IMG/VR virus record: IMGVR_UViG_3300035180_000739 | Coordinates: 1-42,323 of that record | DNA: 42,323 bases | Strand: one strand, 5' to 3' | From: a virus | In this document: positions 72-17,067 of the stretch, in pieces | Layout of the letters: each line of letters begins with the position of its first letter | Position numbering within the stretch: position 1 is the stretch's first letter | The notes under the pieces: model-generated | The model's input: the letters and a program-made list of their open reading frames with translations, nothing else | Databases searched by the model: none | Told to the model about the DNA's origin: nothing | Made by a program: the position numbers and the translations under genes

Positions 72-127
72 TGGCGGAGGCGGTGAGATTCGAACTCACG
101 AACGGTTTCCCGTTGCCAGTTTTCAAG
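72..127 (-). pseudogene. 3' part of host tRNA-Ser(UGA), split by integration
   Basis: Read on the minus strand this is the anticodon loop CTTGAAA (121-127), the 3' anticodon stem ACTGG (116-120), a long class II variable arm (100-115), a T arm (83-99), the 3' acceptor strand CGCCTCC (76-82), and discriminator plus encoded CCA (72-75). The base-pairing partner of the anticodon stem is missing here: GGA/GAGGA precedes the loop where CCAGT is needed. The missing 5' part lies at 42197-42235. Joined through the shared loop, the two pieces give a canonical 88-nt tRNA-Ser(UGA) with a paired acceptor stem (GGAGGTG with CGCCTCC, one G.U). This orphan piece has no promoter of its own and should be non-functional. 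Confidence 0.9.
121..127. other. attL: attL core (7 bp)
   Basis: TTTCAAG on the plus strand, the anticodon loop of the split tRNA-Ser. The same 7 bp recur at 42197-42203. To its left the sequence continues as tRNA and to its right as phage. The crossover must lie inside this heptamer, because identity stops on both sides. Confidence 0.85.
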
Positions 128-167
128 TCCTCGGAGTAAATGCTGAAAATCAACATGTTAGAGCTAA

Positions 168-248
168 ATCATTTCCGCAACCGCCTACGGTTTGGCTGTG
201 CTAACACGTTGATTATGCTGTAGGCTGGTGGGTAGATGCGGAAATGAT
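168..248. promoter_or_regulatory. integrase arm-type sites, left arm
   Basis: Two copies of the 11-mer GCGGAAATGAT, at 168-178 (minus orientation) and 238-248 (plus). Two more copies lie beside attR (42117-42127 and 42139-42149). Repeats restricted to the two attachment arms at 40-120 bp from the core are typical of arm-binding sites of tyrosine integrases. A 14-bp inverted repeat with one mismatch (148-161 and 201-214, AATCAACATGTTAG) lies in the same arm and could bind an excisionase or host factor. Confidence 0.65.
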
Positions 249-263
249 TTTGAGGGGTACGCC

Positions 264-464
264 ATGACGAAATAGCACAAAGTACTTGCAGGCATCGCCG
301 CGCTGATTGGGGTTTTCTTTGCGCGGGGGTGGAACATCCCGGCCTTCATTTCAGCAATGCCGCTTCGGCTTCGCGCCGCAGCACCAGGCCGGGAAGAATC
401 CGACCACCGGCGCGCACCCATTTGCGCAACTCCACCCTCGCCCCTTGCAGGTCGCCCGCGTTGA
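264..464 (+). pseudogene. small hydrophobic ORF with an amber codon at position 4
   Basis: A GAGGGG Shine-Dalgarno sits 7 nt before ATG (264). The frame reads Met-Thr-Lys, then TAG (273-275), then a plausible short membrane segment (HKVLAGIAALIGVFFARGW). After about residue 32 the frame runs antisense to the lysozyme remnant and looks non-coding. A single C-to-T change in a CAG codon would explain the stop. It could be a decayed small membrane-protein gene at the phage end or a chance ORF. The function is unknown. Confidence 0.3.
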
Positions 465-540
465 TCTTGCGCCGCAAAGTGGAACCCGCCAAGCGCGTGG
501 CCCCCAGGTTGTAGGCGAAGTCGGCCAGGATTGCCTCCAA
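346..540 (-). pseudogene. GH24 (T4/lambdoid-type) lysozyme, C-terminal remnant
   Basis: The frame encodes a recognisable C-terminal half of a phage GH24 muramidase: FAYNLG, then AGSTLRRKINAGD, then RKWVRAGG and the closing PGLVLRREAEAALL. The family is normally about 145-170 aa with catalytic Glu-Asp-Thr in the N-terminal third; that part is absent. The frame stays open upstream into the end of the spanin genes but shows no lysozyme similarity there. It follows a complete GH108 endolysin and Rz/Rz1, so it looks like a displaced ancestral endolysin left at the end of the genome. The nearest possible start is TTG. Confidence 0.7.
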
Positions 541-612
541 GGCACTGGCTAAAGAGCATGGCGCAGACGAATGTAAGCCATGAAGCTGAGTCGAACAGGC
601 TGATGCTGTGAT

Positions 613-1140
613 CTACCGCGCGCCGTGGGTTACTTCGTACCACTGGCGGAGGGCGTCGATGCGGGCACGGCACTGCTCGTATAGGGCGGATGCGTCGAGT
701 ATCCACCCGGCGATGTCGGCGTCGGTACTGTCGCCGGGATCGGAGGCAGGGGAGGTAGTGGTTGGAGAAGCGCTGCCGGTGGGCGCGGACAGTCCGATCC
801 GGAAAGCGGGGGATTGCTGGAGCAGGCCGCGAGCATCAGCAGACAGGCAAGGGCGGCCGGTAGTTGCGGTCGAAAGGGCATGGCGGAGTCTCATGTTTGT
901 GGCGTCGAGTTCGATCACGCGGCGGTCTTTTTCGGCCAGCGTCGCATCTGCGGCGCGGCTTGCAGCCTCGATGCGGCGGCGTGATTCATCGGCGGCGGCG
1001 GCTTCGCGCCGGGCGATGTCGCCGCGTATTTGCGCGACCTCGGCCACGCGGGCGCGGTGATCCCAAGTGTAGCCTGCGGCGAAGCCAATCACGCCAGCGA
1101 TGGCGATAGCGATGGCGGTGACGTTCGGCATGGGGATCAT
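613..1140 (-). CDS. Rz: i-spanin (Rz-like), 175 aa
   Basis: Inner-membrane spanin subunit, which pairs with the outer-membrane lipoprotein encoded inside it to fuse the two membranes in the last step of lysis. The N-terminus has one transmembrane segment (about residues 6-24, rich in Ala/Ile/Gly). A charged, heptad-like helical region follows (about 30-105, many Arg/Glu/Ala), then a Thr/Ser/Pro-rich stretch and a short C-terminal helix. ATG at 1140 overlaps the endolysin stop (ATGA), showing translational coupling. The complete o-spanin lies within it in another frame. Identification rests on topology, coiled coil and lysis-cassette position. Confidence 0.85.
   Translation of the reverse strand: MIPMPNVTAIAIAIAGVIGFAAGYTWDHRARVAEVAQIRGDIARREAAAADESRRRIEAASRAADATLAEKDRRVIELDATNMRLRHALSTATTGRPCLSADARGLLQQSPAFRIGLSAPTGSASPTTTSPASDPGDSTDADIAGWILDASALYEQCRARIDALRQWYEVTHGAR
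630..881 (-). CDS. Rz1: o-spanin lipoprotein (Rz1-like), 83 aa, nested in Rz
   Basis: Outer-membrane spanin. The first 20 residues form a lipoprotein signal peptide ending in the lipobox LAAC, with Cys20 the expected lipidated residue. The mature part is strongly Pro-rich (PPLPPIPATVPTPTSP), as usual for Rz1. It is encoded wholly inside the i-spanin gene in a different frame. Mature length is about 63 aa. Confidence 0.85.
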   Translation of the reverse strand: MPFRPQLPAALACLLMLAACSSNPPLSGSDCPRPPAALLQPLPPLPPIPATVPTPTSPGGYSTHPPYTSSAVPASTPSASGTK

Positions 1141-1646
1141 GGTGCGTTCTCCACAAATTCAGCCACGCGAATCATCCACCCCTTTGCGAACACCGCATTG
1201 GCCGGGCGCACCGTGATGGCTTCGCCAAGGAAGCTGATACGCTCGGCCAACATCTTGCGGTATAGCCATGAGGAATTGGCGTCCTGCACGGCGGCTATCG
1301 TAACCGGCCCCAAGATGCCGTCCGTGGCAAGCCCGCCAAGCGATGATTGCAAAAGCCTTACCGCCGTCTTGACCCCGCTATGCACTGCGGTGTCCACAAC
1401 CAGACCGCGCAGCGGATCCGGCAAAGCGGAGAATCCTGGTTTGTCAACATAGAGCGCCATGTAGATGCGTTTCGCCTCATCTACGGACAACACTTCCACG
1501 TCCTTCGGCGTGACCGGGATGCCACGCCACGCGGCAAGAGTGGCCTGTGTGATGCCGTACTTCGTCGGCCCGCCACGATCCGCCGGGTTATCGACGAATC
1601 CGCCTTCACGCTTGATGATGTCATCGATGATGTCGTCAACGGTCAT
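1137..1646 (-). CDS. endolysin, GH108 N-acetylmuramidase family, 169 aa
   Basis: Degrades peptidoglycan at the end of the lytic cycle. The N-terminus carries the family signature IIKREGGF-DNPADRGGPTKYGIT, with Glu14 as predicted catalytic acid. The second half (about 90-165) matches the small peptidoglycan-binding domain usual in this family (ILGPVTIAAV). Length is typical. ATG at 1646 is preferred over an upstream in-frame start because a GAGGAAAAAGG Shine-Dalgarno precedes it and it overlaps the holin stop by 11 bp. No signal peptide is seen, so export should depend on the holin. Confidence 0.85.
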   Translation of the reverse strand: MTVDDIIDDIIKREGGFVDNPADRGGPTKYGITQATLAAWRGIPVTPKDVEVLSVDEAKRIYMALYVDKPGFSALPDPLRGLVVDTAVHSGVKTAVRLLQSSLGGLATDGILGPVTIAAVQDANSSWLYRKMLAERISFLGEAITVRPANAVFAKGWMIRVAEFVENAP

Positions 1647-1866
1647 CGCCTTTTTCCTCAAGCGGCTGAGTAGTGATCCAGCGCAAGAAACTGATCGAGC
1701 CATAAAGCATGACGCCAGCGATTGCGTAGTCGTCCGCCGTCAGTTTGATTTGCAGCAGCCTCTCAATCTGCGGAGTCGCGCCCACCAGCACGCCCAGCAG
1801 TGCACCGGCCCAATGCGTGCGGCTACGCCAAAGACCGCGCAGCTTGCGTTTGAACTCAAGCATCAT
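1636..1866 (-). CDS. putative holin, 76 aa
   Basis: Small membrane protein with two hydrophobic segments (about residues 18-32 and 48-65), a basic N-terminus and a charged C-terminus (LEEKGDDR). Position directly before the endolysin and start overlapping the previous stop (TGATG at 1863-1867) support a holin role. No sequence motif is diagnostic of holins, so the call rests on topology and context. Confidence 0.65.
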   Translation of the reverse strand: MMLEFKRKLRGLWRSRTHWAGALLGVLVGATPQIERLLQIKLTADDYAIAGVMLYGSISFLRWITTQPLEEKGDDR

Positions 1867-2180
1867 CAGAACAGCCCCACCTTGTGCGCCACGAATACCG
1901 CAACAGCGCTTACCATAGCCCACACGGCAGACTGAATCCGCTCGCTTGTCTTGGCCTGCATTGGTTCAGCAACCTCAAGCGCGCGCACCCGCACTTCGAT
2001 CTTCTCCACAGTTGCCATGACCCTCTCGATCGCATGCGAGGAAGCAGCCTGGCGTTCCTCGATGATGGCAAGGCGGTTCACAGCCTCGCTCATACGCTCG
2101 ATGGTGGCTTTCATGGAAGCCTGATCGGACCTGGTATGCTGGATGTCCCTTGCAAGCGCTGCAATCTGCTCACTCTCCAT
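1866..2180 (-). CDS. XhlA-like lysis accessory membrane protein, 104 aa
   Basis: Residues about 1-78 are a long heptad-patterned helix (coiled coil) and residues about 82-100 a single C-terminal transmembrane segment (VWAMVSAVAVFVAHKVG). This is the topology of XhlA-type proteins that act with a holin. ATG at 2180 is preferred over GTG at 2189, because AGGTG lies 6 nt upstream of the ATG. It heads the lysis cassette and is translationally coupled to the holin. Confidence 0.55.
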   Translation of the reverse strand: MESEQIAALARDIQHTRSDQASMKATIERMSEAVNRLAIIEERQAASSHAIERVMATVEKIEVRVRALEVAEPMQAKTSERIQSAVWAMVSAVAVFVAHKVGLF

Positions 2181-2215
2181 AACCGGCACCTGTTTTAGCG
2201 ATCCCTAGCAGCCAA

Positions 2216-2422
2216 CTACTCTTTGGGTGGCGCATATCCACTTGGCGTATCACGAGCATATGCTGCCGCATCAAACTGCGCCTGAATCTGTGCGTTAATG
2301 TGCTGGATCAACGGCGCGGCAACGCGATAAGGTAACTCCATAAGCGCTGTATTCAAGACACTAAGTTGGGCGGTGGTGAAAGTAAGCGTAACGGCTTTCT
2401 TCGTGTCTGATTTATGGTCCAT
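2216..2422 (-). CDS. small protein between tail fibre and lysis genes, 68 aa, unknown
   Basis: Soluble, no signal peptide or membrane segment. The N-terminus is basic (KSDTKKAVTLTF) and the middle predicted helical. It sits 12 bp after the tail fibre stop. I do not recognise the family. It could be a tail fibre assembly chaperone or a lysis regulator by position only. Confidence 0.55.
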   Translation of the reverse strand: MDHKSDTKKAVTLTFTTAQLSVLNTALMELPYRVAAPLIQHINAQIQAQFDAAAYARDTPSGYAPPKE

Positions 2423-2434
2423 GCCTATTACTCC

Positions 2435-4171
2435 TTAATTTCCGTAGTAAGGAATTTTGTATGTTGAGCCATCTATAGCTATCATCATGAAACCTGCCGG
2501 TTTAGTTGGGAGCGTTGCTGAACCAGCAGTCGCTGTTGTAGAGATATTTCCAGCGCTAAATATTCCTAACCCATTTTGCAGTATCAAACGCCCACCGGTT
2601 AAAGTTAGGCTGCCTGATGACTCTGATAAATATACCGTTGATAAATCATCAAAAGCCAATTTTTTGCCGCCCCCGACTTTAATTGCCGCCACTGAAGTGT
2701 TTACAGTCGAGAGGTCAATACCAATCTGGAGTTCCCCACTAAAAGCTATGCCAACAGGGCCGTTTACATTACTAAAATTTATCCCAGCGCTAGCTATAGC
2801 TGTATTATCAAAGAGCAAACCGTTAAAGAATGTTGCATTTGTAGAAACTCCATTTTGTGGGCCTACGCGAATACCTGCGTATATAGTTGGGGCATCTGTT
2901 GCTCCAACTCCAATCCCACAAACAATGTCAGCACCTATGCGCGCATTGTGTGTATCAGTTCCATTTGCGAAAACGTCAACTTCTAATCCTATGAGTCCTG
3001 TCGTGGAGTTAGCATTTCCGCTAGTGTCTCTCGCCTCAAAAACGCCAGCCCATGTAGGGCCAGCCCCAGAGCTTTTCAAACCCTGCCCATAAATAGCGAC
3101 ATTCTCACCTGCTGTTGCAGTATTATGCAGCGTGCTGGTAATGCCCCATTCAAAATTCGTCGCCTGAGCAGCAACATATGTGTCAACTCTAAGGGCAGAG
3201 TTGACAAATCCGGGCGTTCCTCCTACGTAATTTGCGTTTCTTCTAACAGCAAAATCAGAAATATCTGAACTAGATGCAGATATCCGTGCTGTTTGCTCCC
3301 CTTTGCTTGGCGAGTTTAGAGGGAAAGACACTGCGCCAGCACCAGTCAAAGTTACATTCCCTTGAGCCACTACCACACCATTACCTAGTGTGGGCGTTGT
3401 GTTTAATAGGTAAGTTCCTGACGGGATAACTGCATATGGGTATGGTGCGATAGCAGAAAATGCCGCCGTGCTATCTTTCACCCCAGTCGGGTCAGCACCG
3501 AAGTCTGTGACGCTATAAGGCGTACGCGCGGACACCGACCACCACGTGGTTCCATCGAATACCATTAGCAACTTGGTAGCGGTGTTGTAGTAGGTGTCCC
3601 CCGCGCCAGGTGCGGCGCCATTCGGGTCCACCGCCGGGTTGCTGGCGTATGGCCCGTAGTACACCCCATTGAATTCCGCCAGCTTCGCGGCGGCAGACGC
3701 CGCGCTGGCCGCTGCATTGGCTGCAGCCGTTTCCAACTGGCGGATAAAATCATCTGGACTAATCGCGCTGGAAATCGGCACCTTTACCGCGCGGCCGACT
3801 TGTTCGGCCACCTGCTGTATCTGGATGGTTGCGCGGTCGAGGGCGTCGTTTATGACCTTCGGATAAAACGCGCCCTGATTCGTCAACGTGACAGGTTGTA
3901 GGTTTTGCACCTGGCTGGTGATGGTAATCAGGTAGCCGGTGGCTGGCGCCGTGATGGCCGTGATCGTGCCGCCTTGGTTCGCGTCCTGGTCAGCGTTGAG
4001 GGCTACCGTGTAGTCGGTGCCGAGTACGAGATTGCTTTCCACACCGCTCGGGTCGGTCCGAACGACAAGGATATCGCTCGCGGAAAACACCTTGAAGGAA
4101 AAAGGGAACTGCGTCGTCGAGCCGTTACCGGAATACGGCCCGGCTTTTCGGATACTGGATGAAATCGACAT
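2435..4171 (-). CDS. tail fibre / receptor-binding protein, 578 aa
   Basis: The N-terminal ~130 residues match the virion-anchoring domain common to podovirus tail fibres (FPFSFKVF, then DYTVALNADQDANQGG, then TNQGAFYPKVINDALDR). An Ala-rich helical linker follows (about 140-170). Near residue 225 is an F-GADPTGVKDSTAA motif typical of the start of tailspike beta-helix regions. The rest is Gly/Asn/Thr-rich beta structure and should contact the receptor. Base use changes within the gene: the anchor half (3560-4171) is GC-rich like its neighbours, while 2440-3500 is visibly AT-richer, a sign that the receptor-binding part was acquired separately. AGGAG precedes ATG 4171. A late-promoter element lies just upstream. 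Confidence 0.85.
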   Translation of the reverse strand: MSISSSIRKAGPYSGNGSTTQFPFSFKVFSASDILVVRTDPSGVESNLVLGTDYTVALNADQDANQGGTITAITAPATGYLITITSQVQNLQPVTLTNQGAFYPKVINDALDRATIQIQQVAEQVGRAVKVPISSAISPDDFIRQLETAAANAAASAASAAAKLAEFNGVYYGPYASNPAVDPNGAAPGAGDTYYNTATKLLMVFDGTTWWSVSARTPYSVTDFGADPTGVKDSTAAFSAIAPYPYAVIPSGTYLLNTTPTLGNGVVVAQGNVTLTGAGAVSFPLNSPSKGEQTARISASSSDISDFAVRRNANYVGGTPGFVNSALRVDTYVAAQATNFEWGITSTLHNTATAGENVAIYGQGLKSSGAGPTWAGVFEARDTSGNANSTTGLIGLEVDVFANGTDTHNARIGADIVCGIGVGATDAPTIYAGIRVGPQNGVSTNATFFNGLLFDNTAIASAGINFSNVNGPVGIAFSGELQIGIDLSTVNTSVAAIKVGGGKKLAFDDLSTVYLSESSGSLTLTGGRLILQNGLGIFSAGNISTTATAGSATLPTKPAGFMMIAIDGSTYKIPYYGN

Positions 4172-4198
4172 GCGCGGCGCTCCTGGGAATTTGCCGCT

Positions 4199-4230
4199 AG
4201 GCTATCCAACAGGAGCGCTGGCACGTGCAC
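4199..4230 (-). promoter_or_regulatory. late-promoter element P5 (tail fibre/lysis)
   Basis: On the minus strand GTGCACGTGCC (4230-4220) is followed exactly 20 bp after GTGCAC by TAGCCT (4204-4199). It matches four other copies in the late region. A start about 7 bp downstream would give a short leader to the tail fibre ATG at 4171. Confidence 0.5.
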
Positions 4231-4232
4231 TA

Positions 4233-7200
4233 TCAGCGCTTTTCCTGAAAGCCGAAGGCGATGGCGGCCGGGTTTTCGGTCTTGCCCTCGGCCAGGGCCC
4301 TGGTGCCGGTTATGGTGCGGTTGATCTGCGCGCTGGGCAGGCCGAACAGGTCGCCCACGACATTGACCGCCGCCTTGCGGAAGGCGTCGTCGAACTCACC
4401 CTGGTGCGCTTGCACAGCCAGTCTCCCCGTATCGGCGATGAGGCGCAGGCCGGCCGGGCCGGTATAGTCGCGGCCTAGGTCGTTGGCGCCGGTGACGGTC
4501 TTAGCGGCCTCTGAGAACTCGCGTACCACCACCATGAGGCCCATCAGGTAATCTATTTCTTCGGCAAGCAGCCTCTTGGCGATTTTCTGCAAGTCGTCGT
4601 CGCCAGAATCGCCCGGGGTAAGCGCCGCCTTGAGGAAATGGCCCAGCACGACCGGCACCACGAAGAGCATGACGTAATCGACGGCCAGCTTCGCGCGCTT
4701 GGCCGGGGTATTCGCTGTCATGGTCTGCCCCACGCCGATGTTCAGGGCTGTGTTCATGAATGAATAGAACACCGTGAACAGCTTTTGCGCCGGACCACCG
4801 CGCTCGATGGCCGCCAGGTCTTTGGTTTGCCCGCCGCCCTGGGAGTCAATCACGGCCTGATCCGCCAGGGATATGGCGCGGGTTTCCTCGTTGCCTTCGG
4901 CGATGGCTTTCTCATAGGCCCCCCACCAGGTTGGCACGTCTACCATTTGCTGACAGCGCATCATGAGGAAATAGGCATAACGCCCGGTCAATCCCTTGAA
5001 TGTGCTTTGATCCTGCACCTGGTTGCGCAGCTCGTTGAGCTCGCGGAAACGGGTACGCGCCCGGTTCGCCATGAAGTCGGACATTTCATTGACCTGGCGC
5101 GTGAGGTCAATCGGGTGCGCCATGTACTTGAGCATCCCGCGCGCCACCCAAGGCGCGCCCACGCGGGTGATGGATTGCGTAATGCCAAGCGGCTGAATGA
5201 GGGCGCTCATGATGTTGAACCCTAGGCCGGCAGCACTGATCCCCTGGCGCAAGCGCGAGAGGGCCAGATCCACAGCAGCGTCCGCGCCTTTTTCGCCCTC
5301 TGCGATATCCTGCGCCCAGGCCTTGAACTGCTGCTTTACCTCGGGGCCGTAGTGCTCGCGGATGGCCGCGTCGATGGTATGCGAGCGCAGCAGGCGGTTG
5401 GTATCGATCAACCACTCGTGCCAGGCCAGATCATGAATCACGTCATTGACGCCCGAGTACAGGCCGGCCAGCGTATAGAGCAGCGGCCTGCCTCGCACTT
5501 CCTCGACCCGCGACTTGGTGAAGCTGCGTCGCGTGGTGGCCGTGGTGTAGGCGCCCTGCAACTGGCGCTTTGCGCTTTCAGCGTCGGCGTGTTCCTCGGC
5601 GCGCTGGCTGGCGGCCGGGTCGTACTTGATCGGGTAGTAGCCGCCACGCATTTGCACGGTCTGACCGTCAGCCGTGGTGACGGTGAACGGTTGTGGCTGC
5701 ACCCACTCGGGCTCCTTGCCGTAAATGCGGCGCTCCTTGGCGGCGATCAACGGGCGGTAGCTCTCGAAGTGGTCCCACACGGCCTGCACCGCCTGCCATT
5801 CCTGAGCGGTCAGCGATTGCAGCACCGGGGCAAGCTGCTCCAGTGTCCAGCCCTCGCCACCGAGTAGCCGCTGGATGTTGCCATCGTTGCCCATGTTCAA
5901 GGCGATGGCAAGGCGCGCCTCGCGGTTCAGACTGCGGTTGATGCTGGGGAAAAACTGCCCCTTGCCTCCCATCTTGCCCAGCTTGAACACCGGGGCGAGA
6001 ATTTCCGACAGCTTGGCCGTGGCCTCGGCGCGCATCGTGGTTTCCTGGTCGCCGCGCTCGTTGGCGCTGCGCACGAAATACTCCCACATGGGGCCGCCAT
6101 CCTTGCCGCCGTCCATGACGCGCGCCCAGGTGGCCGCCTTGATGTGCTCCGCCCAAAACCGTTTGAGTCCCTGCACAGCCCGGCCCATGTTCGTGGTCGG
6201 CGTGCGGGTGTCTGCCTCGCGGCCTTGCGCGTGCTCGTGGATGCTCGCGGCGATTTCATCGCGCACGGCCTCATAGGCGCGCTGGTCGGCGGCTGTCAGC
6301 AGCTTGTGCTTCAAGCGCCCCAGGTGCTCGATCTGGCGCACGGTATCTACCAGGCCCCGGAATTCCTCGACCGTCATGTTCTTGTAAGACGTGCGGAACG
6401 CCTCGTTCTCCAATTCGGGCGGAATGTCGGGCTCAAGGCCAGCATCGCGCTGCGCCGTGATCCATTCAGCCAGTGCGGTGCGTTTGTCCACTGCCTTGTT
6501 GCTTTGCCCCTTGCGCAGGTCGAACCGTTCCAGCAGGTTGTGGATCTGGTCGGCGTAGTCGGCGTCCAGACCCTTGATGTCGCCCTCGAACTTCTTGAGA
6601 TAGCGCAGGCCCTTGTCTACTTCCTCCAGGGCGTCGTAGGCCGCGCGGGTGGCGTAGTGCTGGATCAACTGGTTGCGCTTCTCGGCCGCCGCCGTGGCGA
6701 TGTCGCCCGACTTGCTGGCCTGATCGGCGGCCTTGGCTGCGCGCACTTCCGCGCTGGCGTACTGGCCAGGACTGATGTTGCGCACCTTGAGGCGGGCAAT
6801 CATCGCGCGCGCATATTCGCGTGCCGCTTCGGGCAGCACGCGGCGCACGATAGGCCGGCCGCGCCGGTCAGTACCGACCTGCTGTGTCGGGCCAGCTGCG
6901 GCACGGGCCAGCGCGTTGGCCTCGGTCGCCACGAAGCGGGCGCGTGCCTCGTTGTGGATGGCGCGGTCGGCGGCCTTCTTGATGGCCTCGGGGCTCGACA
7001 GGTCGCCGAACTGTTCCAGCATGCGCACGTCGGTGAGCGCTTCGATTGCGTCCTTGGGCGGCTCAACGGCGGCCAGCTTGCGCACCAGTTCGTCGCCCGA
7101 CGTGAATCCGAACATTTCGGCCACGATGTCGGGGTGCAGGCCGTTGGCCGCCGTCATCCGGCGCGCCTTCAGCGCGTTGATAACCTCGACGGGTAGCCCC

Positions 7201-10200
7201 ATGACATTGAGTTCGCCCAGGTCGAAGCGCCCAGCGCCGAGGGCCTGTGGGTTGGCCACCTGGTCGCCAGCCCGTGTTTCCATGCCGGCGGTGTAGTCGT
7301 AGTCGGTGGAGTATTGCGGGTTGCCGCGCAATTCCTCGAAGAACTTTTCCTCGAATTCGTGCAAATCCCACTTGCCGTGTTTGTCGGCCGTGAGATAGCC
7401 GCGCTCCGCCAGCAACTCGGCCATGGCGTCGATGGACAACCCACCTTCCCGGCGCAGCACGTGCTTGCCGAATGCCGGCATGGGGATGCGCTCTTTCGGG
7501 TCAACGCCCCACTCGGACTGCACCGCCGCGCGATTCAGGCCGCCCAGCTTTGCGATGGCCGCGAACAGGGAATCCTGGGTTTCGTCGATGGTATCCGGGC
7601 TCGACGTGCGTTTGGCCTGCGGGGTGATCTTGTCATCGGCCGTCAGCTTGCCGGTGAGGAACTGCCAGGCGCGATAAATCGGCTGGCTCATGACCTCGCG
7701 CCGCACGTCCATCTGCACCTCTGCGCGCTTGGCCTCGGCGTCCTTCTGTAGCTGCTTGATGATGCGCCCGCGCGCGTTGTGCAGCCACGTCATGTCGCGC
7801 AGGCCGCGCGCTTGCAGGTCTTGAATGGCGGCGTTGGTGGCATCCACTCCGAGCGCCTGGTAGGCGGCGAATTCCTCTGGCGCCATGCCGGCCTGTTCTG
7901 GCGAAGCGAACAGCGGCATCATGCTGCGGCCCTGCTCGGCCAGGGCGATCTGCTCGTTGGTGGCGAGCATGCGGTCGAATACGCCGCGCACTTCGTCGTT
8001 GAGTTCTACGTTCAGCGCCTTCAGATTCCTGTAGATAGCCAACAACCACGCGCGGAAGCGCTGGAACAGCCCTTGCAGTTCGATGCTCGGGGCTTTGCCC
8101 TCGAACAGGTACGCCTCGAAGCCGCGCGCGAACTGCTCGTGGTAGGCGCGCTTTTCCTCGAAGTCGAGGCCGTACCATGCCGCCAGCGAATCGGCGCCGA
8201 ACCAGCGCAGCAGCGCGTCAGTATCGTCGAGGATCTGGCGCTCTCCCGGCTTTAGGGTATCCATGCCGAAAGACTCGGCTTCCTTCTGCAACTTGGCCGC
8301 GATGTCGAATTGCGCCTCAAGGAAGAAGTGGCCCGACTCATGCAGGAAGGTGGAGAGGTCGGCATTCTTGAGCAGCGTAATCGAGAGCGTGGCGGGGTTG
8401 AAGCTGCCGCGCGGGGCGGCCTTTTCGCCCTGGTAGAACTGGTCGAGTTTCTGGTCTACAATGGCATCCGAGGCGTCGGAGAGGCGAGCCGTGTCACCCT
8501 CTTCATCAAGGCCGGCAGTGCCCGTCGTCGTGCTGGTCGCGCCTCCCTCTTTTTTCTGGAACGCAGTCAGCAGCCAGTGCTTCGCCCGGCTGTCCCAGGT
8601 CAAACGCACAGCAGCCCGATGGTCGGCTGATTCCAGATTGACCCGGTTCTTGCTGCGGGTCGTGACTTTCATTTCCGAGAGAATGGCCTGCAGGTTGTCG
8701 AGCACTTCCGGGTGCCACTTGGCGAGTTTTGCCACGCCGTAGCCGTCGCTGGCCCCGGTGCCTTCCTCGCCCCACACCAGGTCAATGTCGCCGATGTCCG
8801 GGTGGTGCAGCGCGCCGATGGCTTCGCCGCTTTTCATTTCCTTGAGCTTGGCAATGGCGCCCTCGACGTCGCCCTTGTAATCGGTCAGCACCGGCCCGAA
8901 TGGGCCGTGCCCCTGGTCGAATTGCTGGCCGTCGATACGCTCGGCGCCGATCTTGAGCGGGTAGCGGTTGAACAGTTCCTCTGGTGTCACGCCCAGCTTG
9001 GCGGCCATGGCCGCGTAGAAGCTGCTGACCATGGCCGAATAGGCGTCATTCACCTGCGGGGTGAAGCGCGAGACCGCATCGAGTCGGCTCTTGATCTCTG
9101 CGCGCACCGCCTCGGCGGATTGCTTGAACGTATCGTCGCCTTGCTTTTCAGCCAAGACACGCTCGACCTCGGCCTTCAATTCCTCGGCGTGGTTTTGCAT
9201 GTACTCCTTCGCCTCTGCCCGGCTGAACCCTTCCGGGTCGGTCTTGAGGTGATCGAGCAGGCTTTGCGCGTACTCGGTCGGCGCGATGCGCGCGGTGTAT
9301 TCATCGACCGGGATAGCGATCTGCCCGCCCGTTTTCAGGGCGTCTGGCAACTGCGCAGCGACGGCCGGCGATACGGCGGCCACCTGTTCGGCCACGCCCG
9401 ACTGCATGAGCGCGTCAGCGTCGATGAACACCTGCTGCACCGGGCTATCTTCGGTCGCCTTGCCGATCCATTCCTGAAAGGTTTGCGGGTCGCGTTGCAG
9501 CACTTTGTCGGCTGCGGCCAGATTGTTGAGCCCGGACAGCAGTTCAGCGGCTTGCGTGGCGCTCTTAGCCTTCTGTTCCCCTTGGTGGGCGCGCCCGAAA
9601 ATGCCGGAGAATGTTCCGCCCGTCAGCCCTCCGACGAACAATCCTTGCAGCGTATTTTCCAGAACACCGTCGAGTAGCGATTGACTCGGATCGGCGTTGT
9701 TTTTTACCGCCATGTTCTGGAATACCTGCTCCCCGCCGCTCTGTATGGACTCAACCACGCCCTCGTTGGCAAGGCCCTTACCTACGCGCGGCAGCATCGC
9801 CCCACCCTCGCCGATGATCTTGCCCAAGAACTTTCCGCCGATAGCGTTGGTAGTGGCGTCAACAATACCCGCACCGACACCCGCCTCCGTGCCGCCCCGC
9901 GCGGCGAGATAGATGCGCGCGGCGTTTGGGTCAAAGCCCTGCGAGACGAGGCGCTGGTACTCGGGCGACAACGCAAGCTTATCCAGCGGCGTGCCTTCGA
10001 TCTGGCTTTGCGTTTGCACGGACTGCTGGGCATAGCCGACAGTCCCCTCAGAAGCCGCGCCGAATTTTGCCGCCATGTTGGCTGCTGCCTCGATGCCAGC
10101 TTGTCGCGCCGCCTCTTCCGTCATGCCAGCAGCGAGCGCTTGTTTTTCAGTTTGAATGGCCGCACCACGGCTAAGGTACGTGGTCAGCGCAAGGGCTGCC

Positions 10201-10865
10201 GTCGTCGGAAGCGAGCGGATGGCATCGCCGATGATCTTGACAGGTGACAGATAGGCCGCTTTGCTAGGATCGGTCGTCGCGTATTTCAGTCCGCCGTATT
10301 CGCTTTGCGCGCCCGGCGAAATCTCCTGCATATCCTGTTTTGATGCTTCGGCGCGGCTGCGCGCAAAGCGCGACAAAAACATCGATGGGCTTTGTTCGCG
10401 CATTTGCTGCAATTTTGCCAGGTCGTTCTTGAACAACACGGCGGCGTCTGAATCGCTCAAGGTGAACGGGTTTATGTCGTCGATGAGCTTTGCAGCCGCG
10501 CCAAGCAGGTCATTGAACCCCGCTTTGGTCGAGCCGCCTAGAAAAGACAGCGCGTTCTCGATCTTGCTCAAGCTGTCCACGTTGTCGTGGGCGATCTTGG
10601 CTTTCTCCACGTCGGCCAGGAAGGCGGCCGTGGCCGGAGAGGTTTTCGCCAGGGAGTCGAAGTCGATGGCGCCCATGGTGTCCTGCCGCTTCATTTCCTT
10701 GGGCATGCCGAGCACGGTATGCACGGGCACGCCCGTGCGCCGGGCGACACGCTGCGCCTCGGCGTAGTCGTCTGGGTTGGTGTCGGCAGCAGCAAAAAAC
10801 CCGACGCGGGCGGCTTGCCCAAGGTCGGGTTGCATGGCTACGGCTGCGTCGATTTCGTTGCTCAT
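4233..10865 (-). CDS. giant polyvalent internal virion protein, 2210 aa
   Basis: By size and position (between transglycosylase and tail fibre) this is an ejected internal virion protein. Regions in order: an N-terminal part with small-residue-rich, possibly membrane-active segments (about 210-425); a probable barnase/ColE5/RelE-like nuclease-type domain (about 640-790, with HHPDIGDIDLVWG and GYGVAKLAKWHPEVL); a zinc-metallopeptidase-like motif HESGH (about 842-846); long helical regions (about 950-1700); and a C-terminal domain (about 1750-2190) with an FYSFMNTALN motif and a hydrophobic segment near 2065, like domains of large polyvalent phage proteins. Such proteins are injected with the DNA and carry anti-host or defence-blocking activities; that is inference here. 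ATG 10865 overlaps the previous stop (ATGA). Confidence 0.8.
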   Translation of the reverse strand: MSNEIDAAVAMQPDLGQAARVGFFAAADTNPDDYAEAQRVARRTGVPVHTVLGMPKEMKRQDTMGAIDFDSLAKTSPATAAFLADVEKAKIAHDNVDSLSKIENALSFLGGSTKAGFNDLLGAAAKLIDDINPFTLSDSDAAVLFKNDLAKLQQMREQSPSMFLSRFARSRAEASKQDMQEISPGAQSEYGGLKYATTDPSKAAYLSPVKIIGDAIRSLPTTAALALTTYLSRGAAIQTEKQALAAGMTEEAARQAGIEAAANMAAKFGAASEGTVGYAQQSVQTQSQIEGTPLDKLALSPEYQRLVSQGFDPNAARIYLAARGGTEAGVGAGIVDATTNAIGGKFLGKIIGEGGAMLPRVGKGLANEGVVESIQSGGEQVFQNMAVKNNADPSQSLLDGVLENTLQGLFVGGLTGGTFSGIFGRAHQGEQKAKSATQAAELLSGLNNLAAADKVLQRDPQTFQEWIGKATEDSPVQQVFIDADALMQSGVAEQVAAVSPAVAAQLPDALKTGGQIAIPVDEYTARIAPTEYAQSLLDHLKTDPEGFSRAEAKEYMQNHAEELKAEVERVLAEKQGDDTFKQSAEAVRAEIKSRLDAVSRFTPQVNDAYSAMVSSFYAAMAAKLGVTPEELFNRYPLKIGAERIDGQQFDQGHGPFGPVLTDYKGDVEGAIAKLKEMKSGEAIGALHHPDIGDIDLVWGEEGTGASDGYGVAKLAKWHPEVLDNLQAILSEMKVTTRSKNRVNLESADHRAAVRLTWDSRAKHWLLTAFQKKEGGATSTTTGTAGLDEEGDTARLSDASDAIVDQKLDQFYQGEKAAPRGSFNPATLSITLLKNADLSTFLHESGHFFLEAQFDIAAKLQKEAESFGMDTLKPGERQILDDTDALLRWFGADSLAAWYGLDFEEKRAYHEQFARGFEAYLFEGKAPSIELQGLFQRFRAWLLAIYRNLKALNVELNDEVRGVFDRMLATNEQIALAEQGRSMMPLFASPEQAGMAPEEFAAYQALGVDATNAAIQDLQARGLRDMTWLHNARGRIIKQLQKDAEAKRAEVQMDVRREVMSQPIYRAWQFLTGKLTADDKITPQAKRTSSPDTIDETQDSLFAAIAKLGGLNRAAVQSEWGVDPKERIPMPAFGKHVLRREGGLSIDAMAELLAERGYLTADKHGKWDLHEFEEKFFEELRGNPQYSTDYDYTAGMETRAGDQVANPQALGAGRFDLGELNVMGLPVEVINALKARRMTAANGLHPDIVAEMFGFTSGDELVRKLAAVEPPKDAIEALTDVRMLEQFGDLSSPEAIKKAADRAIHNEARARFVATEANALARAAAGPTQQVGTDRRGRPIVRRVLPEAAREYARAMIARLKVRNISPGQYASAEVRAAKAADQASKSGDIATAAAEKRNQLIQHYATRAAYDALEEVDKGLRYLKKFEGDIKGLDADYADQIHNLLERFDLRKGQSNKAVDKRTALAEWITAQRDAGLEPDIPPELENEAFRTSYKNMTVEEFRGLVDTVRQIEHLGRLKHKLLTAADQRAYEAVRDEIAASIHEHAQGREADTRTPTTNMGRAVQGLKRFWAEHIKAATWARVMDGGKDGGPMWEYFVRSANERGDQETTMRAEATAKLSEILAPVFKLGKMGGKGQFFPSINRSLNREARLAIALNMGNDGNIQRLLGGEGWTLEQLAPVLQSLTAQEWQAVQAVWDHFESYRPLIAAKERRIYGKEPEWVQPQPFTVTTADGQTVQMRGGYYPIKYDPAASQRAEEHADAESAKRQLQGAYTTATTRRSFTKSRVEEVRGRPLLYTLAGLYSGVNDVIHDLAWHEWLIDTNRLLRSHTIDAAIREHYGPEVKQQFKAWAQDIAEGEKGADAAVDLALSRLRQGISAAGLGFNIMSALIQPLGITQSITRVGAPWVARGMLKYMAHPIDLTRQVNEMSDFMANRARTRFRELNELRNQVQDQSTFKGLTGRYAYFLMMRCQQMVDVPTWWGAYEKAIAEGNEETRAISLADQAVIDSQGGGQTKDLAAIERGGPAQKLFTVFYSFMNTALNIGVGQTMTANTPAKRAKLAVDYVMLFVVPVVLGHFLKAALTPGDSGDDDLQKIAKRLLAEEIDYLMGLMVVVREFSEAAKTVTGANDLGRDYTGPAGLRLIADTGRLAVQAHQGEFDDAFRKAAVNVVGDLFGLPSAQINRTITGTRALAEGKTENPAAIAFGFQEKR

Positions 10866-13033
10866 TTGCGGGTAACCATAAGGTTCCAGTAGGCGTTTAG
10901 GATCTGCGCGTCAGTCGGGTTGTCGATGCCACGGCGCTTGAAAGCGGCCTTGATGCTGTCCTTGGTATCGCTATCGATGTCGCCCACCTTCATGCCCAGC
11001 ATCGGGCCGGAAGAATTGGAGAACAATCCCCGGAACGTGACATTTTTTGCGAACAGCGAGTCGAGATGCTGGGCCACTTCGGCGTCGGTGAATTTCTTAC
11101 CGGCCTCACGCTGGGCGGCCATGAAGTATTGATCTACAAACCGACGGATGGCGCCAACACGCGCGGCATCGCTGCCGCCGTCATCCTTGGGCGTTGGGTC
11201 GATTTGCAACATACGCAGGCGTTCATCAAGCGACTGCTTGATGGCCTGTGTGTTGAGGTCGCCCGGCCCGTTGCTACCTGTCGCGCCCCCGAGAAGTTTG
11301 GCGCGCTCGCTGGCGAAATGCTTGAAGTCTGCATCCGACAGTTCGCGGCGCAGGGCGAAGAACTCGTTATCACTCATGCGCGCCAGTCGATCAGGGCTAC
11401 CGGCCAGCTTGGCGTAGAGCCACAAGTTTGTGGAATCGTCGCCGTTGGCGATCTTCTTTGCGAAGCCTAGGAGGTTGTCCACTTCCTTGGGCGGCACTGC
11501 GGCGCGAATGCTGACCGGCAGGTCGGAGAACCTGCCGCCGTTCTGAATGATGCCGCGCATGGCCGTGGCGACGGCATCTTCATCGCGCTGCTTGATGGCA
11601 TTGGTTTGCTCGGTGAACTGGCGCTCGGCTTCCTCGCGCGCCACTTTGTAGCGGGCGGGGTTGCCGGCGAGGCGAGGATCCGCGCGCAGTCGGTCGTCGA
11701 TTTCCCGAAAGGTCGGTTGGTTTGGCCGCCCCTGTCCGGCATCAAAAGCATGCATGTTATTGGTGACGTAATCGCGCGTTTCCTGCGGCATGAAATCGAG
11801 CCAGGTGTACGCATGTACGTTCGGGTCGTTTTTTGCCAATTTCGCGGACTTCTCGGCTTTCTCGATGGCATCAGCCAGTCGGCGTGGTCCTGCGTTGTAG
11901 GCCGCGAAGGCTTTGGCGAGATCGCCGCCGTTGACCTGTAGCTGCTTCTGGAAGTAGGCAAGACCTATGGCCTTGTTGTAGTCCGGGTCGTTTTTGTATT
12001 TGTTCTCGTCCCACGGCAGGCCAGCCAGTTTGGCGGCCTCGCGTGCGGTAGCGGGCATGATCTGGGCGATACCGATGGCCCCCTTGAGCGAGGTCAGCGG
12101 CTTGCCGTCCGCGCCTAACTGACGGCCCCCGGACTCGGCCGCGATCAAGATGTTGAAAGCACGATCTGCCTCGCTCACCTGTATGCGCGGCTGAATCTTG
12201 CCTATCACGTCGGTGGCGACGGCGACGCCCACGCGGGCGTCCATCTCTTTGGTGATATGGCCGCGCACGGCGAGGATGTCGTCTGCATCCATCTGGTCGG
12301 AATACTTCTTGAGGTAGGCGTCGGCGTAGGTCGGGTCGTTATTCTCTATTGCTGTCAACAGCGCAACCTTGTGCGCGTTGCTGGTCATCTTGCGCGCCAT
12401 GGCTTCCTGCCATTCGGCCGACTTGCCGAGCAGTTGCGCCTGCCGATAAGTCTCGGCTCGGATGCGTTCTACGGCAGAATTCACCGCGTCTGGATTGTTC
12501 CAGTTCAGGCCGATTTCGCGCAGGGCAGTTGCCTGTATGCCTTCGGATACAGAAATGCCATAGTTCTGGTATTCCTGCGCCTCGTGCTGCATGGCCTGAC
12601 CGCGCATCGAAGTGAGAATATCGTTCGCGTGCAGCGTGAATGCTTGTCGCTGGGCGTCGTTGCCCAGGGTGCCAGCGATTTCGTCGATGGTGCTCTTGAG
12701 CTTTTCGCCGTACTCATCGGCCAGGGGCTTGCCGTCCGGTCGTTTCAGGGCGCCGAGACCTTTCAGGTTGAGGAACCCCTCGTCCTTGTCATGGGTCAGG
12801 CGCAGCGCGGCTTCCTTGGCCTGGTTAAGCGCATCGTCAACCCGCAACTGGTTGGCCTGCTGCGCAATATCGTTGGCGATCCTGCCGACATCGCCGCCGA
12901 ACTGCTGCATGGCCTGGCCCATTTGCTGATCTTGACGGCCAGCGACATCGGGCATGGTGGGCACATCGAAGCCTTGCGCCGGCAGGCTGGTGGTCGCAAC
13001 TTGCGGGGAGTCATAACGGGGCACGGTGGGCAT
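10862..13033 (-). CDS. internal virion lytic transglycosylase, 723 aa
   Basis: Virion-associated enzyme that cuts peptidoglycan during DNA entry, so the ejection channel can cross the wall. An SLT domain lies at about residues 290-430 and has the diagnostic series AAESGG (catalytic Glu), GAIGIAQIMPATA, FAAYNAGP and ETRDYV. The first ~280 residues are mainly helical (DDALNQAKEAALRL) and resemble an internal virion scaffold region. The C-terminal ~280 residues are helical with no recognised domain. It follows the 178-aa internal protein directly (stop and start 1 bp apart) and overlaps the 2210-aa protein, so the three form an ejection-protein unit. Confidence 0.85.
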   Translation of the reverse strand: MPTVPRYDSPQVATTSLPAQGFDVPTMPDVAGRQDQQMGQAMQQFGGDVGRIANDIAQQANQLRVDDALNQAKEAALRLTHDKDEGFLNLKGLGALKRPDGKPLADEYGEKLKSTIDEIAGTLGNDAQRQAFTLHANDILTSMRGQAMQHEAQEYQNYGISVSEGIQATALREIGLNWNNPDAVNSAVERIRAETYRQAQLLGKSAEWQEAMARKMTSNAHKVALLTAIENNDPTYADAYLKKYSDQMDADDILAVRGHITKEMDARVGVAVATDVIGKIQPRIQVSEADRAFNILIAAESGGRQLGADGKPLTSLKGAIGIAQIMPATAREAAKLAGLPWDENKYKNDPDYNKAIGLAYFQKQLQVNGGDLAKAFAAYNAGPRRLADAIEKAEKSAKLAKNDPNVHAYTWLDFMPQETRDYVTNNMHAFDAGQGRPNQPTFREIDDRLRADPRLAGNPARYKVAREEAERQFTEQTNAIKQRDEDAVATAMRGIIQNGGRFSDLPVSIRAAVPPKEVDNLLGFAKKIANGDDSTNLWLYAKLAGSPDRLARMSDNEFFALRRELSDADFKHFASERAKLLGGATGSNGPGDLNTQAIKQSLDERLRMLQIDPTPKDDGGSDAARVGAIRRFVDQYFMAAQREAGKKFTDAEVAQHLDSLFAKNVTFRGLFSNSSGPMLGMKVGDIDSDTKDSIKAAFKRRGIDNPTDAQILNAYWNLMVTRK

Positions 13034-13570
13034 TTATTTACCCTCCATGTTGCGCCGGTAGTTGTACCAGGTGTTCGCCACGCTGCCGGCACTGCCAAGC
13101 AGGGAGGTGGCCGACGCAGCAAATGGGCTGATCGTGTCGGCTGTGGCAGAACGCAAAGCCGCCTCATTCTGGTAATTGACGCCTTGAGTTCGATACCCCC
13201 AAGCGCTGCGCACGGCGTTGGCGATCAGCGTGTTGGCGTCAATTTCCTTCATGATGTCTGTGGACGCCTGCACCTCGGCCGCGTTGCCCACGCCCAGGTC
13301 GATACCGTTGGCGGCCATGGCCGCGCGCTGGCTGCTCTTGATTTGCCCAGACTTGAGGGTAAGCGCTCCTACTTGCTGCTGACCCTGGTTGAGGGCCGAT
13401 TGCGCGCCGAGTTCGGCGATTCGCGCGTTGGTGTCTGCAATATCCGACTGGAAGCGCAGGCTGCTTTGCTGGGATTTCGCACTGTAGTAGCTGCCGACAG
13501 CCGAACTTAACCCGCCGCCAATCTGCAAAGTCATCGCCGCTTGCGCCAGTTGGCTCGAATTAAATCCCAT
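13034..13570 (-). CDS. internal virion protein, 178 aa
   Basis: An N-terminal Gly/Ala/Ser-rich hydrophobic stretch (about 8-28) is followed by a helical Gln/Ala-rich middle (LRFQSDIADTNARIAELGAQ). The pattern is typical of the small T7 gp14-like internal protein, which forms an outer-membrane channel on ejection. The assignment is by composition, size and position, not by a motif. AGGAG precedes ATG 13570 and late-promoter element P4 lies upstream. Confidence 0.65.
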   Translation of the reverse strand: MGFNSSQLAQAAMTLQIGGGLSSAVGSYYSAKSQQSSLRFQSDIADTNARIAELGAQSALNQGQQQVGALTLKSGQIKSSQRAAMAANGIDLGVGNAAEVQASTDIMKEIDANTLIANAVRSAWGYRTQGVNYQNEAALRSATADTISPFAASATSLLGSAGSVANTWYNYRRNMEGK

Positions 13571-13596
13571 GCTCTAGCTCCTGATACTTGGGGGCG

Positions 13597-13628
13597 ACAT
13601 TAGCGCCCGACCGCGCGGATATGTGCAC
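13597..13628 (-). promoter_or_regulatory. late-promoter element P4 (internal virion genes)
   Basis: Minus strand GTGCACATATCC (13628-13617), then TAATGT (13602-13597) exactly 20 bp after GTGCAC. It lies in the gap between the nozzle stop and the 178-aa protein and leaves room for a leader with a good Shine-Dalgarno. Confidence 0.5.
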
Positions 13629-13632
13629 CGGG

Positions 13633-15678: not shown

Positions 15679-15680
15679 GT

Positions 15681-16331
15681 TTACCTACCGTTGATCCAGG
15701 CGACGCTATGATGCGGAGTGATGCGCCGTTGCGAGGCATCGGATTCCATAGCCTTCAATAGATAGCTCTGCATCATGGCGGCGCATCGCTTGGCCTCGGC
15801 CGCGCCCGCGTCCCCCTTGAGCAGCGGCCCGGCCAGCATCGAAGCCAATTGCCAGGACAATGCCACGGTGAACAGCGGAGAGAACTTGGTCGTGTCTGTT
15901 ACGATGCTGGTATAGCGCAGCACGGCGTCGGACTGGTCCGTCAGGATAACGGCATTGCCATCGCCATCTACTTCGCAAGAGAACGCTTGTGGCACGTATG
16001 AACCGCCAGCCGCTTCCGGTACGTTCGCTGCCCCAATGCTGTAATCGTCGGTGGCGTCTGGTGGCAGAACAGCGATGATGTTGATCGCGTCGGACGGCTG
16101 GGCGTAGGAATAGTCCCACTCTGGCCATCCGCTACCCAGCTGGGCCAGCGAAACGCGCCTGGTGGCGAACCCCCAATTGTGCATTTCCAGCAGTGAATCG
16201 CGGGCTGTGGGGTAGAAGCGCGCACAGTGCTCGGCCTGTGCGGACCCCTCGGGTGGATTTAGGCTCGCTACGGCCGCGCTATCGCCCAGGTGCGCCAGGG
16301 CCAGGTTACAGATATCGACTTCGGATGCCAT
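15681..16331 (-). CDS. head-tail adaptor, gp11-like, 216 aa
   Basis: Bridges portal and tail nozzle. The opening EVDICNLALAHLGD followed by A-HCARFYPTARDSLLEMHNWGFATRR is the conserved N-terminal helical region of gp11-type adaptor/gatekeeper proteins. Length is typical. GGAGAAACCG precedes ATG 16331. A terminator-like hairpin upstream may lower its expression relative to the capsid genes. Confidence 0.8.
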   Translation of the reverse strand: MASEVDICNLALAHLGDSAAVASLNPPEGSAQAEHCARFYPTARDSLLEMHNWGFATRRVSLAQLGSGWPEWDYSYAQPSDAINIIAVLPPDATDDYSIGAANVPEAAGGSYVPQAFSCEVDGDGNAVILTDQSDAVLRYTSIVTDTTKFSPLFTVALSWQLASMLAGPLLKGDAGAAEAKRCAAMMQSYLLKAMESDASQRRITPHHSVAWINGR

Positions 16332-16348
16332 CGGTTTCTCCTAGAAAT

Positions 16349-16370
16349 ACGGGGGGCGCGAGGCCCCCGT
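16349..16370 (-). terminator. GC-rich hairpin, probable attenuator
   Basis: On the minus strand ACGGGGGC and GCCCCC(C)CGT pair around a CTCG loop, followed by a weak U tract (ATTTCT). It separates the capsid genes from the tail genes, where a drop in expression is expected. The short U run suggests partial termination. Confidence 0.5.
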
Positions 16371-16397
16371 AAGCCGCTACCTGCTGAGGGGAAACGG

Positions 16398-16589
16398 TTA
16401 AACCAGGCTTTCGCCTGCCGCTGCCGGGTCCGATCCAGTGGGGTCCGCGGAAGGTGATTCGGCGGCCTTCTTGCCTTTCTTCACCGGCTCCAGGTTCTCG
16501 GAAAGCTCGCCATCGTATTCGATGATTTCGCCTTCCTCGACGATGCGGTTGTTGATGTAGGACTTTTGCAGTACGCGTACTTGCGCCAT
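16398..16589 (-). CDS. small virion-cluster protein, 63 aa, unknown
   Basis: The N-terminus reads AQVRVLQKSYINNRIVEEGEIIEYDG, a short beta-barrel-like pattern seen in small proteins encoded beside capsid cement proteins in phages. The C-terminal half is low-complexity (Pro/Ala/Ser/Asp). The family is not named here. It may be a minor decoration or connector protein by context. Confidence 0.6.
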   Translation of the reverse strand: MAQVRVLQKSYINNRIVEEGEIIEYDGELSENLEPVKKGKKAAESPSADPTGSDPAAAGESLV

Positions 16590-16602
16590 TGTTCAGCCCT
16601 CC

Positions 16603-17067
16603 TTACAGCACAGCAAAGCCAGCCGGGTAGAACTTCTGGCCGTCTTGCGTTTCGAGGCCGAAGTCCGTGACGAAGGCGCCAGCAGTGCCCGTGCCGGTAA
16701 TGACGTAGCGGGCGCCGAGGTAGCGCTGGCCCTTGCTGCCGATGCGAGGGTTCATCTTGGCGGCGAAGCGTGCGCCAGCCGTCAGCGATGCCGCCGGGAT
16801 TGCGCCAGTGGTGCCTACGACGGTCACGTTCGCGGAGAGCGCGGCGTCGTCAGCGGTGATGGCCTGGACTTCAATCGAAGTCGCGCCAGCCACGGCAGTA
16901 ACCACTTCGGACCGAATGAACAGGTCCTCGCCTTCTCCTACGTCGCGGGCTTGCATCAGGTCGATGGTGTTGGTGGAAAGCACCGGGCCGGTGCCGGTGA
17001 CGGTTTGCCCGGTCACCGTGTTGCCGGAAATGGAACCGGAAACGAGCAGGTTGTTGTCGACGATCAT
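16603..17067 (-). CDS. capsid cement (decoration) protein, Bbp16-like, 154 aa
   Basis: Beta-rich protein immediately downstream of the major capsid gene, consistent with a trimeric cement protein on the capsid surface. Features: DARD-like segment LMQARDVGEGEDLFIR near residue 40, an alternating beta pattern and RYLGARYVITGTGTAG near 115. Size and position match the BPP-1 cement protein type. The name rests on family resemblance from memory. Confidence 0.65.
   Translation of the reverse strand: MIVDNNLLVSGSISGNTVTGQTVTGTGPVLSTNTIDLMQARDVGEGEDLFIRSEVVTAVAGATSIEVQAITADDAALSANVTVVGTTGAIPAASLTAGARFAAKMNPRIGSKGQRYLGARYVITGTGTAGAFVTDFGLETQDGQKFYPAGFAVL

Follow-up and report, generated by a model that had tools for sequence, protein, structure and literature searches.

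A prophage that appears to split the host tRNA-Ser(UGA) gene at its anticodon loop and to carry a replacement tRNA inside attP

An 11-bp sequence, GCGGAAATGAT, recurs near both ends of the window, by which we mean the whole 42,323-bp stretch of DNA analysed here, an IMG/VR virus contig, and the question that it raises is what kind of attachment site these copies belong to. The host counts given below come from genomes other than that of the window's own host. The original prediction held that the repeat occurs four times and nowhere else in the window. Exact matching bears this out, as the four copies each lie beside one of two att cores and the window holds no further one; in 300 dinucleotide-preserving shuffles of the window the exact sequence appeared 0.03 times on average, with a maximum of 2. 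It should be emphasized, however, that a four-fold count is not unique, because 26 different 11-mers reach at least four copies in this GC-rich window (compared with 0-6 in 20 shuffles); the unusual part is the clustering at the att cores. When up to two mismatches are allowed, the motif is only mildly enriched, with 22 matches against a shuffle mean of 12.9, and 22 was reached in 2 of 100 shuffles. The sites beside the cores are as follows, with the distance of each site centre from the core centre:

168..178, minus strand: putative arm-type site, P' arm, +50, exact motif
238..248, plus strand: putative arm-type site, P' arm, +118, exact motif
42115..42135: 21-bp palindrome TTGCGGAAATGATTTCCGCAA, which contains two overlapping putative arm sites
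42117..42127, plus strand: putative arm-type site, P arm, -79, exact motif
42123..42133, minus strand: putative arm-type site, P arm, -71, inverted, one mismatch
42139..42149, plus strand: putative arm-type site, P arm, -57, exact motif

Two copies on each arm, as originally described, is thus correct for exact copies but overlooks the fifth at 42123-42133. It is with this inverted copy that the palindrome is formed, and its two 10-bp arms around one base amount to 21 bp rather than the 17 bp claimed. The similar distances from the core hold only roughly, the exact copies standing at -79 and -57 on one side and at +50 and +118 on the other.

The cores themselves reveal what the element has done to its host. 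The relevant features are:

72..127, minus strand: 3' half of the host tRNA-Ser(UGA), left junction
121..127: att core TTTCAAG, which is the anticodon loop, left copy
128..42203: prophage, including one copy of the 7-bp core, with host tRNA-Ser halves on either side; the joined flanks give a tRNA-Ser(tga)
42197..42203: att core TTTCAAG, right copy
42197..42235, minus strand: 5' half of the host tRNA-Ser(UGA), right junction, overlapped by a weak tRNA match at 42179-42235; the part beyond the core is 42204-42235

When bases 1-127 are joined to 42204-42323, ARAGORN reports a complete tRNA-Ser(tga) of 88 nt, in which the anticodon stem CCAGT/ACTGG encloses TTTCAAG, and it reports no tRNA in attL, attR or attP alone. 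Thus, the prophage at 128-42203 interrupts a gene of the host for tRNA-Ser(UGA), and does so at the anticodon loop. This gene and attB overlap, and with a core of 7 bp no tRNA is rebuilt at attL or attR. The joined site matched 389 of 399 Limnohabitans-family genomes at E <= 0.001, mostly over the tRNA alone among the matches listed; the best match to span the junction (97% over 88-89 nt) was contiguous in G123 and G375. The original prediction had defined the arms without recognizing the core as an anticodon loop, the split host tRNA or the replacement tRNA inside attP. The last of these belongs to a compact module at the right end of the prophage:

40623..40874, plus strand: excisionase gene, preceding int (PHROG 4764, E 3.8e-25)
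40878..41948, plus strand: tyrosine integrase gene, int, 356 aa (Pfam PF00589 and PHROG integrase)
41972..41989, minus strand: terminator-like hairpin, directly after the phage tRNA
42000..42089, minus strand: complete phage-borne tRNA-Ser(UGA), the putative replacement gene (ARAGORN tRNA-Ser(tga); Rfam 58.3 bits)

This tRNA, the only one found in the window by ARAGORN, lies between int, which encodes a tyrosine integrase by both Pfam and PHROG, and the P arm, and is identical to the host tRNA from the joined flanks in 70 of 93 aligned columns. A search with the att-tRNA region matched 82 records of named phages, none covering 80% of the query, and in the best 15 of the 82 the coverage is about the tRNA. 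Among plasmids the integrase had 17 matches, the best 41% identical. Elsewhere in the window, 4233-10865 on the minus strand encodes a 2,210-aa protein that matches PHROG 9880 (unknown function), with weaker profile matches to virion RNA polymerase, DarB and endolysin.

We are highly confident, from the layout of the locus and of its relatives, in an explanation by which the prophage splits the host tRNA-Ser(UGA) at the anticodon loop, the 11-mers serve as arm sites and the phage's own tRNA, inside attP, replaces the gene. A lambda-like tyrosine integrase would act on an attP with the order int - tRNA-Ser - P arm (three arm sites) - 7-bp core - IHF - arm - IHF - arm, the anticodon stem flanking the loop providing the inverted repeat on which the enzyme would sit in attB. 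Integration would cut the host tRNA-Ser(UGA) in two without rebuilding it, while the phage would supply a complete tRNA-Ser(UGA) from within the att module. With the host gene, presumably essential, cut and the phage tRNA supplied and expressed, the lysogen would live on the phage tRNA and lysogeny would depend on it, until excision restored the host gene.

Relatives of the integrase place this locus in a wider context. Viral contigs yielded 35 loci that encode a related integrase, and genome contigs 277 relatives, in one scan of each; 80 of the 277 were kept. The classed set contained 119 loci with a known integrase end, including five phage records, and the rule was applied to the DNA after int. 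Carriers, defined as loci where a complete tRNA-Ser(tga) is followed by a separate core, in a split host gene or a free attP, made up 25 of the 119; L007 is no independent case because its integrase is 100% identical to that of the window. The rule counted a further 46 as restoring at tRNA-Ser (in 32 the tRNA is complete and no second core follows, 8 have a 3' half and 6 have a 3' half in the opposite orientation), a score that is doubtful for L040 and L052, two of the 32 that are restoring by rule, and that was checked against a second 3' half in three genomes only (G015, G016 and G017), where a second, near-identical 3' half does lie elsewhere in the genome. Another tRNA came first after int at 15 loci (14 tRNA-Cys and one tRNA-Leu), 26 had no tRNA target after int and count neither way, and the remaining seven had no sequence after int.

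Integrase arm sites, as in lambda, flank the core on either side with constant spacing; they form direct and inverted pairs and alternate with IHF sites. The attP of the window follows this plan: by sequence, five putative arm-type sites flank the core on both sides, and matches to WATCAANNNNTTR, the IHF consensus, fall between the core and the arm sites:

148..160, plus strand: perfect match to WATCAANNNNTTR, candidate IHF site, +30
202..214, minus strand: perfect match to WATCAANNNNTTR, candidate IHF site, +84

These are the only two perfect matches in the whole window, and they alternate with the P' arm sites. With at most one mismatch, both are kept in seven of the eight other carrier attP sites, neither being present in L019, and across nine integrated left junctions the +30 match occurs in seven and the +84 match in three. 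The geometry of the arm sites is conserved as well, with centres at -79(+), -71(-), -57(+), +50(-) and +118(+) in the window and in L010, L011, L014, L015, L017 and L021. L019 and L020 keep three of the five, within one base and at the motif cut-off, and in L020 the motif at these positions is altered to TTGGGAAAACGAT. Nine other integrated carriers were searched at their left junctions with up to two mismatches: both P' arm sites were found in six, a single one in another, and neither in G002 and G008. Relatives that use the other attachment mode (PA8, VB_EV13, L034 and L036), whose integrases are 57-59% identical, also have P' sites, whole or partial. PA8 and VB_EV13, in which the 3' half of a tRNA lies beside the core, have arm sites at -157, -137, +51 and +118, L034 has them at -133, -125 and +117, and L036 has a P' site at +117, its P' arm being kept in part as in L034. 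The P' side is kept, and the P arm is displaced outward when tRNA sequence intervenes between it and the core.

Because five sites hold fixed core distances, and the same strands, in seven of nine carrier attP sites and are accompanied by two IHF consensus sites, the arm-site reading is well supported, and the 11-mers are most likely the arm-type sites of the integrase, as was originally predicted. It could be argued that they bind another protein instead, either the excisionase, a gene for which is present, or a regulator of the tRNA promoter, three of the 11-mers being upstream of the tRNA on its strand. We consider this improbable, as sites on both sides of the core, fixed in spacing and alternating with IHF sites, reproduce the arm layout of an integrase such as that of lambda, and the P' sites persist wholly or partly in relatives that have no complete tRNA there. 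With regard to tRNA promoters, none was conserved among the 25 carrier rows, of which just the window and L054 gave promoter-like matches at the 5% level. On the minus strand, a sigma-70-like match at 42172-42145 overlaps an arm site; it was rejected as the tRNA promoter for want of conservation in 24 relatives.

The tRNA carried in attP is equally constant in kind. In all 25 carriers, as the classing rule defines them, it is a tRNA-Ser(tga), the isotype of the target, with 86-134 nt between its 5' end and the core, and exactly 107 nt in ten of them. Apparent free attP sites with the complete tRNA inside the phage were seen in eight viral records (L010, L011, L014, L015, L017, L019, L020 and L021), each with one tRNA, in records that may be fragments. 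VB_EV13 has three tRNAs, away from its att site, and no tRNA was found in the records of L034, L036, PA8 and PseuP_222. Integrases of L010, L011 and L014 are 92-94% identical to that of the window, yet the tRNA-Ser of L014 is clearly distinct, with 79% identity to that of the window; phages seem to have exchanged the tRNA gene with isotype and anticodon unchanged. Phage tRNAs have been proposed to serve lytic translation or to resist tRNA-cutting defence (PMC10865867), roles compatible with the explanation preferred here, and the match to the disrupted gene could on that account be a by-product. Such an origin is, in our judgement, very unlikely, in view of the shared isotype and the short distance to the core in every carrier, and of the free attP sites with a 3' half (L034, L036, L042 and L045), where no complete tRNA stands at the att site.

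Replacement of the host gene by the phage tRNA is consistent with the content of the host genomes. In a pattern search, each of 13 host genomes with a carrier, six of them from isolates and seven of them MAGs, showed one intact tRNA-Ser(TGA), the element's own, extra pattern matches in G001, G002 and G004 having been judged by eye not to be intact tRNA genes, and the pattern being one that could overlook variant copies. Lysogens available as isolates include Sulfurisoma sediminicola BSN1 and Aquabacterium commune DSM 11901. A left junction was recognized in nine of the 13 genomes (G002, G003, G004, G006, G007, G008, G009, G011 and G012) and in none of the other four; both junctions are on one contig in five of the nine and on different contigs in four. 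In all nine, the joined flanks make a tRNA-Ser(tga), the left junction alone gives no tRNA and the right gives just the phage tRNA, which has 67-81 of 88-93 aligned columns in common with that of the host. The gene beyond the split half adjoins tRNA-Ser copies in other genomes at four of the nine carrier loci tested (L048, L051, L056 and L062), and no such shared neighbour was found at the other five. Among 60 Limnohabitans-family genomes, including G004, the intact pattern was found in 54, exactly once in 53 of these, and gave no match in six. G005, which holds the doubtful carrier locus L052, has two intact tRNA-Ser(TGA) genes. That the window instead represents an ordinary tRNA-restoring prophage, in which 42000-42089 is the gene of the host, made whole by a 3' half from attP, and marks the prophage end, would be the usual arrangement, one scored for Pseudomonas and Janthinobacterium loci with related integrases, and the left end does contain a 3' tRNA half, but this is extremely improbable, as the host tRNA from the flanks and the tRNA at 42000 differ to the extent given above, the partner that the left half fits is the 5' half at 42204-42235, attP has only the core TTTCAAG in common with attB rather than a tRNA 3' half that restores the gene, and both the free attP records with a whole tRNA inside the phage and the joined flanks contradict it.

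The mode in which the phage tRNA replaces the split gene probably has a restoring ancestry. An integrase tree of 112 rows was built by a quick method and midpoint-rooted, so that its root is not inferred, with L007 and L040 left out by hand along with the identical integrases L022, L024, L025, L027, L035 and L036. Of the 25 carriers, 23 fall in one 32-row branch (support 84), which also includes three restoring-scored rows (L067, L068 and L052). With 10 changes of the label required across the tree, at least 5 by the starred branches, the carriers do not form one clean clade. The midpoint root has restoring rows on either side, and L080 and L095 have long branches. It is likely that the carrier mode arose within a restoring family, and the distribution would fit later switches. 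Simple loss of the 3' half was considered as the route and rejected: in L034, scored as restoring, the distance from P arm to core exceeds that of carriers by 54 bp, close to the 51 nt of tRNA carried there, yet PA8, which carries the same 51 nt, has its P arm 78-80 bp further out. The deletion idea fits L034 only, because the P arm of PA8 is displaced by more than its 51 nt.

Other loci of the family were noted in passing. After int, L052 has a carrier-type tRNA-Ser and a P arm, and at the core position TTTGCAG, which resembles the anticodon loop of tRNA-Cys, a possible change of target. In Pseudomonas and near relatives (L086, L089, L100, L109, L112, L114, L117, L122, L123, L125 and others), int is followed by tRNA-Cys(gca), sometimes with a tRNA-Gly behind, as if integrases of the same family there used tRNA-Cys. 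L066 contains tandem TCAGAAGT repeats between int and tRNA-Ser, about 1.05 kb after int.

Loci with tRNA-Ser genes were also seen in other settings. Beside tRNA-Ser, at 54 loci of 53 Limnohabitans-related genomes, the arm motif had three one-mismatch matches (L158, L188 and L207). In G043 (L159, L210), the only intact tRNA-Ser(TGA) has the 5' half of a different tRNA-Ser as its neighbour, and GCGGAAAYGAT arms are missing. The 3' half is found at a distance of 12.5 kb, some 0.9 kb from a tyrosine integrase, and the locus resembles another type of element that replaces a tRNA. At L165 (G040), L176 (G053), L177 (G063) and L205 (G066), also among the 54 tRNA-Ser(TGA) loci, a 5' half starts 22-140 nt beyond the match of the intact gene; these four are possible remnants. 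The 3' half in G063 is just 1.07 kb away, and in G063 and G066 a search of 10 kb revealed no integrase. G053 has a short integrase frame at a distance of about 5.4 kb, and the single nearby match in G040 resembles XerC; the G040 locus may be a tRNA duplication. In an Accumulibacter MAG (G005, contig C58), L153/L208 is a tRNA-Ser(TGA) of the phage type with a decayed right junction, on a contig with no relative of the window's integrase, and is possibly a domesticated replacement tRNA.

A phage tRNA of this kind must contain the core of its own integrase, because the core is the anticodon loop. If the anticodon stem of the host tRNA forms the integrase-binding arms of attB, the loop would have to be kept and divergence of the replacement tRNA would fall in the stem. 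In the window, the phage tRNA has the stem GTGCT/AGCAC and the host tRNA CCAGT/ACTGG. The two were compared by halves, as only the right half of the target stem is readable at an integrated right junction. Among 17 integrated carriers there is no case in which phage tRNA and target are identical in the stem half right of the core. When native tRNAs were drawn instead, there were 6.1 matches on average, and zero in 0.05% of draws. This says nothing, however, about the pairing of phage tRNA and host, because reassigning the phage tRNAs at random within the 17 phage-host pairs yields an average of 0.18 matches, and zero in 83% of shuffles; the signal is the absence of CCGGT only. This commonest native stem is found in 0 of 25 phage tRNAs (L007 standing for the window), which are not independent draws, compared with 25 of 48 natives, which come from one family and are the 54 loci minus six (five with a split neighbour, plus L198). 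It is conceivable, although we would not favour it over its negation, that the replacement tRNA has been selected to be integrase-proof, with loop kept and stem diverged, and that the module also swaps bacterial tRNA genes permanently through prophage decay. A stem that the integrase cannot use would shield the phage from self-recombination, and decayed prophages that leave just their tRNA would, if this were true, amount to a lasting swap of tRNA genes between bacteria.

The phenomenon would be a case of tRNA-dependent lysogeny, which was described in 2024 for the actinobacteriophages Fionnbharth, LeBron, Gaia and others, with cores of 8-17 bp (Table 2 of that report) and tRNA-Lys, Ile2 or Leu as targets (PMC10865867). 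Its authors considered the relation to restoring systems unclear and the spread beyond actinobacteriophages open, and named the Lactobacillus prophage Lj965 as a possible case (PMC10865867). Similar to those systems as described there, the window has a tyrosine integrase, a core too short to rebuild the tRNA, a phage tRNA of the same isotype and putative arm-type sites, and related phages use either mode (PMC10865867). In contrast, the relatives studied here have beta- and gammaproteobacterial hosts, the target is tRNA-Ser(UGA) and the core is exactly the 7-nt anticodon loop. The tRNA, moreover, is here part of attP, with a nearly constant spacing to the core; that of Fionnbharth overlaps gene 37 and that of Gaia is downstream of int (PMC10865867). 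In Sinorhizobium meliloti, prophage-like sequences replace an inactivated tRNA gene with an element-borne isoacceptor (PMC11476347), and tRNA replacement in a proteobacterium is thus common to both; these elements are alphaproteobacterial (PMC11476347). Variovorax prophages with tyrosine integrases, betaproteobacterial like several of the elements discussed here, occupy the same tRNA-Ser(TGA) target and have reported att sequences; no tRNA gene was found in the isolated phage VarioGold, and the available part of that report mentions no replacement tRNA (PMC9658991). Among the literature matches listed, none described tRNA-dependent lysogeny in betaproteobacteria. Closest by integrase are the Pseudomonas phages PA8, VB_EV13, PseuP_222 and F10 (53-58% identical to the window's), of which PA8 and VB_EV13 agree with the window in core and in P' arm geometry but differ in having the 3' half of tRNA-Ser next to the core, as in a restoring attP, while PseuP_222 has its 3' half in the opposite orientation.

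Island mapping by a restored tRNA and its fragment, the Islander principle, would probably misplace the ends of prophages such as this, and the compact module of int, tRNA and attP would make a testable integration vector in laboratory betaproteobacteria. As both modes occur in one beta-/gammaproteobacterial integrase family, with the same core and similar P' geometry, the switch between them can be studied directly. This study extends a known principle: what is new compared with the systems above is the placement of the tRNA within attP, the exact coincidence of core and anticodon loop, and the presence of both modes in a single integrase family.
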